Assembly: GCF_000498575.2 (NCBI RefSeq)
Contig: NZ_AWSQ01000001.1
Coordinates: 764,201 to 806,989, forward strand
Length of the DNA: 42,789 nucleotides
Origin: Pseudomonas taeanensis MS-3
GTDB taxonomy: Bacteria > Pseudomonadota > Gammaproteobacteria > Pseudomonadales > Pseudomonadaceae
Reading direction: 5' to 3'
Made by a program: the position numbers and the translations under genes. Of this stretch, positions 31,046 to 33,025 are shown in pieces. The notes below the pieces were generated by a model. The model was not told where the DNA came from. It did no database searches and saw nothing but the letters and a program-made list of their open reading frames with translations. Within the stretch, counting starts at the first letter, position 1; each line of letters opens with the position of its first letter.

Positions 31046-33025
31046 ATGTTCCGTGTATTCCGCTCTGTGCGGGCTAACCTCAGCCTGCGTATGCAACTGC
31101 TGGCGGGTTTTGCCCTGGTGTTGATGATTACCCTGGCTATCGCCTGGTTGGGCTTCGACACTCAGCGCAGCACCCTGGCGCGCTTCCAGATTCTGCTCCA
31201 GTTCAACACCATCGATGGCCAGCTGCAGCGCCTGCGGCAGCAAGAGCGGGAGTTTATTCTGAGCGCTGCGGAGCCGGCGCTGGTCGAGGCCCAAGCCCGT
31301 CTCGGTGAACTGCAGCGCAGTGTGCAGGGCGGCCTGGACAGTGTTACCGATGTCGATGCCCGGCAGCGCCTCGGGCTGATTCAGGAGGCCGTCAATGCCT
31401 ATCAAGGGCGCCTGCAGTTGCTCAGTCAGGCCAGCGCTCAACGCCAGGCAGCGGAGCAGGCGATGGCCGCTGCCGCCGAACAAGTGTTGCAGCGTTTCGA
31501 CAAACTCGGTGCTCGACTGCGCAACTGGGCTGCCAAGCTGGTGCGGCTGAGCGGCGTGGAACACAGCCTGCCGGCCATGGAGCAGGCCGAACAGAGTGCT
31601 GAGCTGACCAAGGGGCTGCTGTTGGCGCGCCAGCATGAGCTGCTGTTCCTGAATAACGCACAAGCGGCCGAGGCCACGCGGCTGCTGACCCAGCTCGAGC
31701 GTCTGCAGCAGACCGGCCAACAATTGCGTGAGCAACTGCGCGAGCCTTTTGCCCAGGCCGATATCGACGCCGCCCTGCAGCAGCTAGGCCAGTATCGCCA
31801 GGCATTTACCGCCTTGCAGCACGCGTTCGCCAGCCGGCAGGATGCCGTGACCGAACTCGGTGTACAGGCGCAGCGTGTGCTGCAGGCCTCCAGTGAAGCG
31901 CTCGCATGGCAACATCAGAACCTGGCCGTCCAGGCCCGTCAGACCCAGCAACTGTTGATCATGGCAGCGCTTGTCGCGTTGGCGTTTGGCTTGGCCTGCG
32001 CGTTGCTGATCACCCGGCAGATCGTAGTCCCGTTGCAACGCCTGGCCGGTGTGGCCCAGCGCATCGCCAAAGGCGACTTGAGCGTCGAGCATGCTGCCCG
32101 GCCGGGCGAAACGCTCAGAACCGATGAGCTGGGGCAACTAATGGGGGCCATGCAGAGCATGGGCGCTAGCCTGAGCGGCCTGTTGTCGGGTCTGGCGCAG
32201 GGTATCGAGCGTTTGACCGGCGCTACCGGGCAGATGGCCTCGGTGGCGCTGCAGACTCGCGCTGGCGTGAGCCAGCAGCGGCTGGAGCTCGAACAGGTGG
32301 CCACCGCCATGCAGCAAATGAGCGCCACGGTGCAGGAGGTGGCGCGCAGCGCCGAGTCGGCTGCGGGCAGTGCCGCGCAAGCCGACCGAGAGGCGTGCCA
32401 GGGCGAACGCATCGTGCAGCAGGCCATTCAGCGGATTGCCGATCTGGCTCAGAGCATTCAGCTGTCGGCCCAGGTTATCGAACGCTTCGAGCAGGACAGT
32501 CACAACATCGGCGCGGTACTGGACGTGATCAAGGGCATCGCCGAGCAGACCAACCTGCTGGCGCTCAACGCCGCGATCGAAGCGGCCCGGGCCGGCGACG
32601 CCGGGCGTGGTTTCGCCGTGGTGGCCGATGAGGTGCGCGCCTTGGCCCTGCGTACCCAGGGCTCCACAAGCGAAATCGAAGGGCTGATTGCCACGCTGCA
32701 GGGCGGTGCGCAAGGCGCGGTGGCGCAGATGGAGCGCAGCCGAGCGCTGGCCCAGGACACCATCGGCAGTGCCGAGCACGCGGGCCACGCGTTGCAGACG
32801 ATCAACAGGGCTGTCTCCAGTATTCAGCAGATGAGCCAACAGATTGCCGCTGCGACCGAGCAGCAGAGTGTGGTCGCCGAAGAAATCAGTCGTAGCGTCT
32901 CGAGCATTCGCGACGTGGCCGAACAGGCGGCCAGTGCCAGTGAACAGAGTACCGATGCCAGCGCCGAGTTGATGCGTCTGGGCGAGACCCTGCAGGGCTT
33001 GGCTGGGCGCTTCCGATTGGTCTGA
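31046..33025 (+). CDS. Methyl-accepting chemotaxis protein with HBM-type sensor domain
   Basis: A 659-residue chemoreceptor: helix 1 (about 17-36), periplasmic all-helical sensor of roughly 265 residues, helix 2 (about 302-325), HAMP (about 326-380) and a cytoplasmic signalling hairpin whose tip IAEQTNLLALNAAIEAARAG and GRGFAVVADEVRALA are intact. The sensor has a repeated R-Q-x-E/H-x-x-x-Leu-type helix (LRQQEREFILS, LARQHELLFLNN), one per half, and a length matching the helical bimodular (HBM) class such as McpS. ATG 31046 with GAGGAAA upstream is chosen over 30992. There is no C-terminal CheR-docking pentapeptide. Its place between doeX and doeC suggests it senses ectoine-related or other nutrients; this is inference. 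Confidence 0.88.
   Translation: MFRVFRSVRANLSLRMQLLAGFALVLMITLAIAWLGFDTQRSTLARFQILLQFNTIDGQLQRLRQQEREFILSAAEPALVEAQARLGELQRSVQGGLDSVTDVDARQRLGLIQEAVNAYQGRLQLLSQASAQRQAAEQAMAAAAEQVLQRFDKLGARLRNWAAKLVRLSGVEHSLPAMEQAEQSAELTKGLLLARQHELLFLNNAQAAEATRLLTQLERLQQTGQQLREQLREPFAQADIDAALQQLGQYRQAFTALQHAFASRQDAVTELGVQAQRVLQASSEALAWQHQNLAVQARQTQQLLIMAALVALAFGLACALLITRQIVVPLQRLAGVAQRIAKGDLSVEHAARPGETLRTDELGQLMGAMQSMGASLSGLLSGLAQGIERLTGATGQMASVALQTRAGVSQQRLELEQVATAMQQMSATVQEVARSAESAAGSAAQADREACQGERIVQQAIQRIADLAQSIQLSAQVIERFEQDSHNIGAVLDVIKGIAEQTNLLALNAAIEAARAGDAGRGFAVVADEVRALALRTQGSTSEIEGLIATLQGGAQGAVAQMERSRALAQDTIGSAEHAGHALQTINRAVSSIQQMSQQIAAATEQQSVVAEEISRSVSSIRDVAEQAASASEQSTDASAELMRLGETLQGLAGRFRLV

Follow-up and report, generated by a model that had tools for sequence, protein, structure and literature searches.

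The ectoine cluster and its chemoreceptor gene

The window, a stretch of 42,789 nucleotides from Pseudomonas taeanensis MS-3, carries an ectoine cluster encoded on both strands. On the minus strand lie the genes for the TRAP membrane subunits DctM (23347–24699; PF06808, 364.8 bits) and DctQ (24641–25183; PF04290, 92.3 bits), together with the gene for EhuR/EnuR, a MocR-type ectoine regulator (25326–26726; NF052286, 599.3 bits against a cut-off of 480). The plus strand begins with doeA (eutD), encoding ectoine hydrolase (26904–28091; TIGR02993, 633.3 bits, cut-off 613), and doeB (eutE), encoding a deacetylase (28129–29166; TIGR02994, 480.4 bits, cut-off 402.7), both identified by NCBIfam equivalog models. 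These are followed by a gene for a uehP-type TRAP binding protein (29173–30255; PF03480, 238.4 bits), which gives strong matches to the solved TRAP binding proteins 4pfi, 3gyy, 3fxb and 2vpn; we take 2vpn and 3fxb to be the ectoine-binding proteins TeaA and UehA. Next comes doeX, an Lrp/AsnC regulator gene (30341–30820; PF01037, PF13412) found at the same place in 9/9 close relatives. Further downstream are doeC, an aldehyde dehydrogenase gene (33256–34728; PF00171, 545 bits) that is 88–96% identical in nine relatives and has its likely start at 33256 in a frame open from 33181, and doeD, a class-III aminotransferase gene (34837–36243; PF00202, 251.3 bits). The names doeX, doeC and doeD reflect family and position, with no ectoine-specific model among their listed matches. 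Last in the series are eutB, eutC and eutA-like genes (36307–39029, plus strand), for which NF005680 and NF006141 score above cut-off and TIGR02991 and TIGR02992 below; the EutA-like protein also falls below its NCBIfam cut-off (TIGR02990, 193.7 bits against 318). No ectoine synthase was detected in the P. taeanensis genome, but control genomes were silent as well.

A 12-gene ectoine arrangement is reported, in the excerpted text of PMC13188858, for Vibrio diabolicus and nine Pseudomonas species. All 12 of its genes (doeAB, uehP, asnC, doeCD, eutBCA, enuR and uehQM) have counterparts in the window, in the order and on the strands described in that excerpt; relative to it, asnC (doeX) and ssd (doeC) are separated in the window by a repeat and a chemoreceptor gene. 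Judged by gene content, the chemoreceptor is thus an extra gene in an otherwise standard 12-gene cluster. In the main text of PMC13188858, the terms chemotaxis, chemoreceptor and methyl-accepting have zero occurrences.

The additional gene occupies 31046–33025 on the plus strand and translates into 659 residues with no internal stop; the same frame is also open from an upstream ATG at 30992, which would give 677 residues. Its product scores above the Pfam cut-offs for the HBM domain (PF16591, 35.5 bits against 29.8), the HAMP domain (32006–32176, plus strand; PF00672, 39.8 bits) and the MCP signalling domain (32369–32917, plus strand; PF00015, 151.7 bits). A predicted periplasmic sensor covers approximately residues 40–300 (31163–31945, plus strand) and is flanked by two hydrophobic helices, with limits set by eye on an AlphaFold2 model. 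Computed on a 14-sequence alignment, this model folds the sensor into six long helices (mean pLDDT 83.8), which fits a helical sensor of the bimodular type. The HBM domain, the predicted six-helix, two-module fold, and the HAMP and MCP signalling domains together place the protein among the HBM-type methyl-accepting chemotaxis proteins. Translation and Pfam searches therefore bear out a sequence-only reading of the locus, which had described a 659-residue HBM-type receptor here; Pfam and NCBIfam matches likewise agree with the neighbours that it named, doeX to the left, doeC to the right, and catabolic genes on the same strand.

A second full-length copy of the receptor in the protein database is 99% identical, with seven amino-acid differences, and the gene has thus been kept intact. 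From its sequence, the receptor is probably a working one. The P. taeanensis genome holds 38 MCP signalling-domain matches, so that an MCP gene beside some catabolic cluster is not unlikely in itself; four of its MCPs match across the sensor.

The spacer between doeX and doeC

In the closest relative (G303, DoeA 98% identical), the BLASTN alignment with the window ends at 30789 and restarts at 33115. The intervening stretch (30790–33114) has no counterpart there, and its flanks lie 85 bp apart. Across nine relatives, 300-bp tiles running from 30801 to 32900 return two 32-bp scraps as their sole matches. Alignable sequence returns in a leader upstream of doeC (33115–33255, plus strand), where the tile 32901–33200 matches over 44–115 bp in all nine. 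The distance between the doeX and doeC matches is 139–212 bp in seven of these relatives and approximately 1.53 kb in two; P. xionganensis (DoeA 94%) has a spacer of about 300 bp containing no MCP gene. Part of the doeC leader, around AAAGTGG...GTAAACACGCACCA, is conserved and may serve doeCD as a promoter or operator of their own.

Other genomes carry other material at this place. The spacer of a sister genome, G181, contains an open reading frame for a BCCT-like transporter on the opposite strand (locus L112; PF02028, 28.3 bits, cut-off 27), and by eye a similar reading frame is present in the spacer of G285 (L111). Several genomes of a group with DoeA 66–67% identical have approximately 2–7 kb between doeX and doeC. 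Among these long-spacer loci, L102–L104 and L108 were read, and L201, L210, L212, L217, L218 and L234–L236 were assessed by length only. By eye, a ProX-like binding protein occurs in two of the four that were read, and an NlpC/P60-like and a YhhQ-like gene in three of the four.

The junction in G303 is itself unusual. Its DoeX tail is unlike that of the window, which resembles those of G285 and G181, and the 5ʹ end of its doeC is 79–88% identical to the G285 and G181 sequences, compared with 93–95% for the window. The doeX tail and doeC 5ʹ end of G303 (L110) look aberrant, as if derived from an unsampled source. This junction may have been secondarily replaced, and the insertion may be older than the split between the window and G303. 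Because the G303 junction is aberrant, loss of the receptor there is conceivable, and this genome does not offer a clean empty site. The relatives other than G303 still argue for a gain in the lineage of the window. Acquisition by recombination, on a tract imported from a G285-like donor, was considered and dropped, since the odd sequence is that of G303 and not that of the window.

The repeat element that the sequence-only reading placed on the left of the receptor is real. It measures 145 bp (30820–30964), overlaps the doeX stop codon, has terminal inverted repeats and can form a hairpin (predicted fold −53.6 kcal/mol); its copies are mostly flanked by TA, as judged from 12 of them. In the P. 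taeanensis genome, this dispersed repeat yields 53 aligned pieces, or 40 places after pieces within 400 bp are merged. Where G181 reads GACTAG, the window reads GACTA followed by the repeat, so that the element seems to have entered the doeX stop codon while preserving the stop. A 32-bp piece of the same repeat (87.5% identical) is present at 34759–34790, between doeC and doeD. A composite mobile element was rejected as the vehicle of the receptor gene, given that the repeat flanks this gene on the left only, is dispersed genome-wide and has left the 32-bp piece as its other trace in the window. Absent from the right of the gene, the repeat alone does not explain the gene's move. Plasmid origin was likewise rejected, as no plasmid matched the sensor at E 1e-10.

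In composition, the receptor gene has a GC3 of 0.778 (0.76 in the sensor and 0.80 in the signalling part), compared with 0.83–0.92 in all 11 cluster genes computed; one gene outside the cluster is equally low, at 0.771. Neither a promoter-like site nor a terminator-like site on the plus strand was found between 30700 and 33300. A sigma-28 promoter was sought separately, but the best site scored 9/12, a value matched by 49 of 500 shuffles, and was not used.

Distribution of the receptor and of its sensor relatives

Across other doe loci, the receptor is not a regular component of the ectoine cluster. Gene order is maintained, with no MCP gene, in 9/9 genomes with DoeA 89–98% identical, and also in P. 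xionganensis. A broader set of 84 other doe loci was drawn from 68 of the 74 other DoeA-bearing genomes of a genus sample, 15 genomes of a class sample and one of the order, some of these loci being ended by the contig. An MCP signalling domain is found in two of the 84 (L109 and L198) and in none of five further loci. Within the fetched stretches of all 89 loci, which include the ten close relatives, the window's sensor is never matched over its length. Moreover, the genus density of MCP genes (6.06 per Mb, from 59 genomes) predicts 7.3 MCPs in the 68 genus loci, whereas one was seen (Poisson P 0.006).

The two exceptions differ from the window. The receptor of L109 is of the PAS type; in this locus, from a genome of another family of the order (G105), doeA is immediately preceded by genes for an MCP rich in PAS domains and for a protein containing three CheW stretches (4190–7832). 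In G407 (L198; positions 3289–4872 of the extended locus L238), a 527-residue receptor has a half-length HBM match (51.2 bits) and is encoded on the opposite strand some 3 kb past doeD, from which an MFS transporter gene separates it. At the density of the P. taeanensis genome, roughly one HBM-type receptor would be expected in 68 loci, and the G407 receptor leaves the odds between the readings considered below unaltered.

The relationship was also approached from the side of the sensor. Among 397 other genomes of the genus, a sensor relative (E <= 1e-24) occurs in 12 and DoeA (E <= 1e-100) in 74; the two are found together in two of the 12, with 2.2 expected (Fisher P 0.69). The relatives scored in this survey, chosen in each genome from the few candidates that ranked best at a first look, are 28–37% identical and not strict orthologues. 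As a plain count, named sensor loci led to 16 genomes, of which 5 have DoeA; with these loci included, the relatives span 28–41% identity. Furthermore, none of doeA, doeB, doeX and enuR was found at E 1e-10 in 55 loci of sensor relatives (42 and 13 from two collections that partly cover the same genomes). Generic matches to aldehyde dehydrogenase, aminotransferase, response-regulator and DctM families are present in these loci. Small groups of sensor relatives, for example those of G001, G437, G401 and G190, share neighbours that include PAS-type hybrid histidine kinases (two loci typed), and the typed neighbourhoods have no common metabolic theme.

The sensor subfamily occurs chiefly in Pseudomonas, with fewer and more distant matches elsewhere. 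Apart from the 99% copy, no sensor above 41% identity emerged when 84,980 species genomes were scanned twice by sequence pattern, a set that may omit records close to the P. taeanensis genome. The best relative in 398 genus genomes reaches 37% at most, and drawing relatives again around G303 brought no new sensor. Protein searches, each covering about 8000 candidates, returned the same protein and two others at 32 and 27% identity among the matches listed. Searches of species genomes, the protein database and solved structures brought up no near orthologue whose ligand is known.

All 14 aligned sensors share R46, E67, Y119, R195, Y250 and F254. The counterpart of E67 in McpS and ancestral PcpI is the second arginine of the LRIAR motif, and the window reads LRQQE at this place; the arginine pair seen in 2yfa and 9snn, taken here as a mark of McpS-type organic-acid receptors, is thus absent from the window's sensor. 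These LRIAR arginines are, we assume, ligand-binding. An invariant glutamate in place of the arginine suggests that the ligand is unlike that of McpS and ancestral PcpI. Additionally, the window has E145, Q196 and L199 where R, R and K occupy the equivalent positions in 30, 27 and 30 of 38 relatives, respectively (42 loci less three that were too short and L167). Such departures at commonly basic positions could reflect a changed ligand. E67 formed part of the collecting pattern, so that its conservation among the 38 relatives is partly by construction; the 13 relatives in a second alignment (A2) were gathered without a pattern containing E67. Alignment A1 has one wrong row (L016, antisense), and no conclusion is drawn from it.

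Candidate ligands and comparison with known systems

Taken together, the distribution and the insertion site make it likely that a complete HBM-type chemoreceptor gene was inserted recently, in one lineage, into a standard ectoine cluster, and that the ligand of the receptor is something other than ectoine. A chance insertion parting doeX from doeCD had been the fallback of the sequence-only reading and is the better-supported half of it, since the clusters of close relatives contain no such receptor. The doeX–doeC spacer would tolerate insertions because the doeC leader is presumably kept, and the G181 spacer holds its own BCCT-like transporter. The receptor, as a transmembrane dimer, would bind a small charged molecule with its two-module helical sensor at the dimer interface, by analogy with McpS. 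The signal would then pass through the HAMP domain to the cytoplasmic hairpin and on to CheA/CheY, and the predicted outcome is swimming steered towards a small molecule, probably not ectoine. Lying on the operon strand with no promoter- or terminator-like site between, the receptor gene may share some of the expression of the ectoine genes while its product does not sense ectoine.

Compatible with the insertion part of this explanation is an ordinary organic-acid receptor of the McpS/McpK type that stands in the cluster by chance. The HBM domain scores above its Pfam cut-off, the sensor has a 41-bit profile match to McpS (2yfa), and most of the characterised HBM receptors named in the excerpted text of PMC5126104 take organic acids. 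However, McpS is absent from a single-sequence search with the sensor at E up to 1, and the invariant Glu67 stands opposite the second LRIAR arginine, which leaves an ordinary organic-acid receptor an unlikely, if serious, candidate.

Direct binding of ectoine, hydroxyectoine or a catabolic intermediate, by which taxis would be added to uptake and use, was the main proposal of the sequence-only reading, which also called for a survey of co-occurrence with doeA. In its favour are the position and strand of the gene within the cluster, its preservation as an intact gene, the BCCT-like transporter in the same spacer of G181 and the half-length HBM receptor near the doe genes of G407; R64 and E67 of the sensor would, in addition, suit a zwitterion. 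A marine assay also shows, in the excerpt of PMC12202767, that ectoine serves as a substrate, a signal or both depending on the strain, and this excerpt names no receptor. Yet the survey placed doeA in a chance-level number of genomes with a sensor relative, synteny is not conserved, and doe or enuR genes do not accompany the relatives, so that what ties the receptor to ectoine is its position. E67 is no mark of ectoine either, being common to relatives in ten genomes in which no doeA was found. Ectoine sensing is therefore improbable. The same low probability attaches to a fuller proposal, in which this would be the first chemoreceptor in an ectoine-catabolism operon, remodelled at E145, Q196 and L199 for ectoine, its intermediates or the ectoine-loaded TRAP protein, with search and use co-induced. 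If ectoine were sensed, the protein would be the first ectoine chemoreceptor in the literature searched and might explain how cells locate this solute: none was among the matches listed from the open-licence literature, and the main text of the ectoine-genetics review PMC5924519 has zero occurrences of chemoreceptor and methyl-accepting. As the evidence stands, the locus is a case for caution, in which the position of a gene hinted at a function without support from the 89 other ectoine loci.

Far less probable is a receptor that reads the ligand-loaded TRAP binding protein (29173–30255) in place of free ectoine. The HBM-type receptor CtpL, which in the excerpted text of PMC5126104 reads loaded PstS, offers a precedent, and the binding-protein gene, two genes upstream, encodes a protein resembling solved TRAP binding proteins; against this, the binding protein occurs without the receptor in 9/9 close relatives. 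An old membership of the receptor in the ectoine cluster, for which the anomalous G303 junction would allow a loss in that genome, is just as improbable, since the gene would have had to disappear repeatedly, from ten close relatives as well as from the other doe loci, and the receptor was seen in none of them.

Apart from the 99% copy, the closest receptors found are four HBM receptors (L131–L134) from a Pseudomonas MAG, P. xionganensis, P. alcaligenes MB-090714 and Pseudomonas sp. AOB-7, whose sensors are 41% identical. Unlike the window, these loci lack doeA, doeB, doeX and enuR beside the receptor; L131 adjoins genes for a penicillin-binding protein and a dCache chemoreceptor, and among the four genomes doeA is present only in that of P. 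xionganensis, far off on the same contig. The window's receptor belongs to a subfamily of divergent HBM receptors in which an invariant glutamate replaces the arginine of McpS and ancestral PcpI, and the searches made found no ligand for any of its members. Among solved structures, ancestral PcpI (PDB 9snn, named as in the PDB listing) is the best match to the sensor alone (E 0.00028; 42.9 bits by profile); it is distant and has arginine at the position of Glu67. If the ancestral PcpI of 9snn corresponds to the PcpI of P. putida 1290, its counterpart binds salicylate and has a sensor un-annotated in Pfam, according to the excerpt of PMC9543091. McpS of P. putida (PDB 2yfa/2yfb), an organic-acid receptor in the excerpted text of PMC5126104, has the HBM domain in common with the window's receptor, but its sensor is very distant, with arginine at the second motif position where the window has Glu67.
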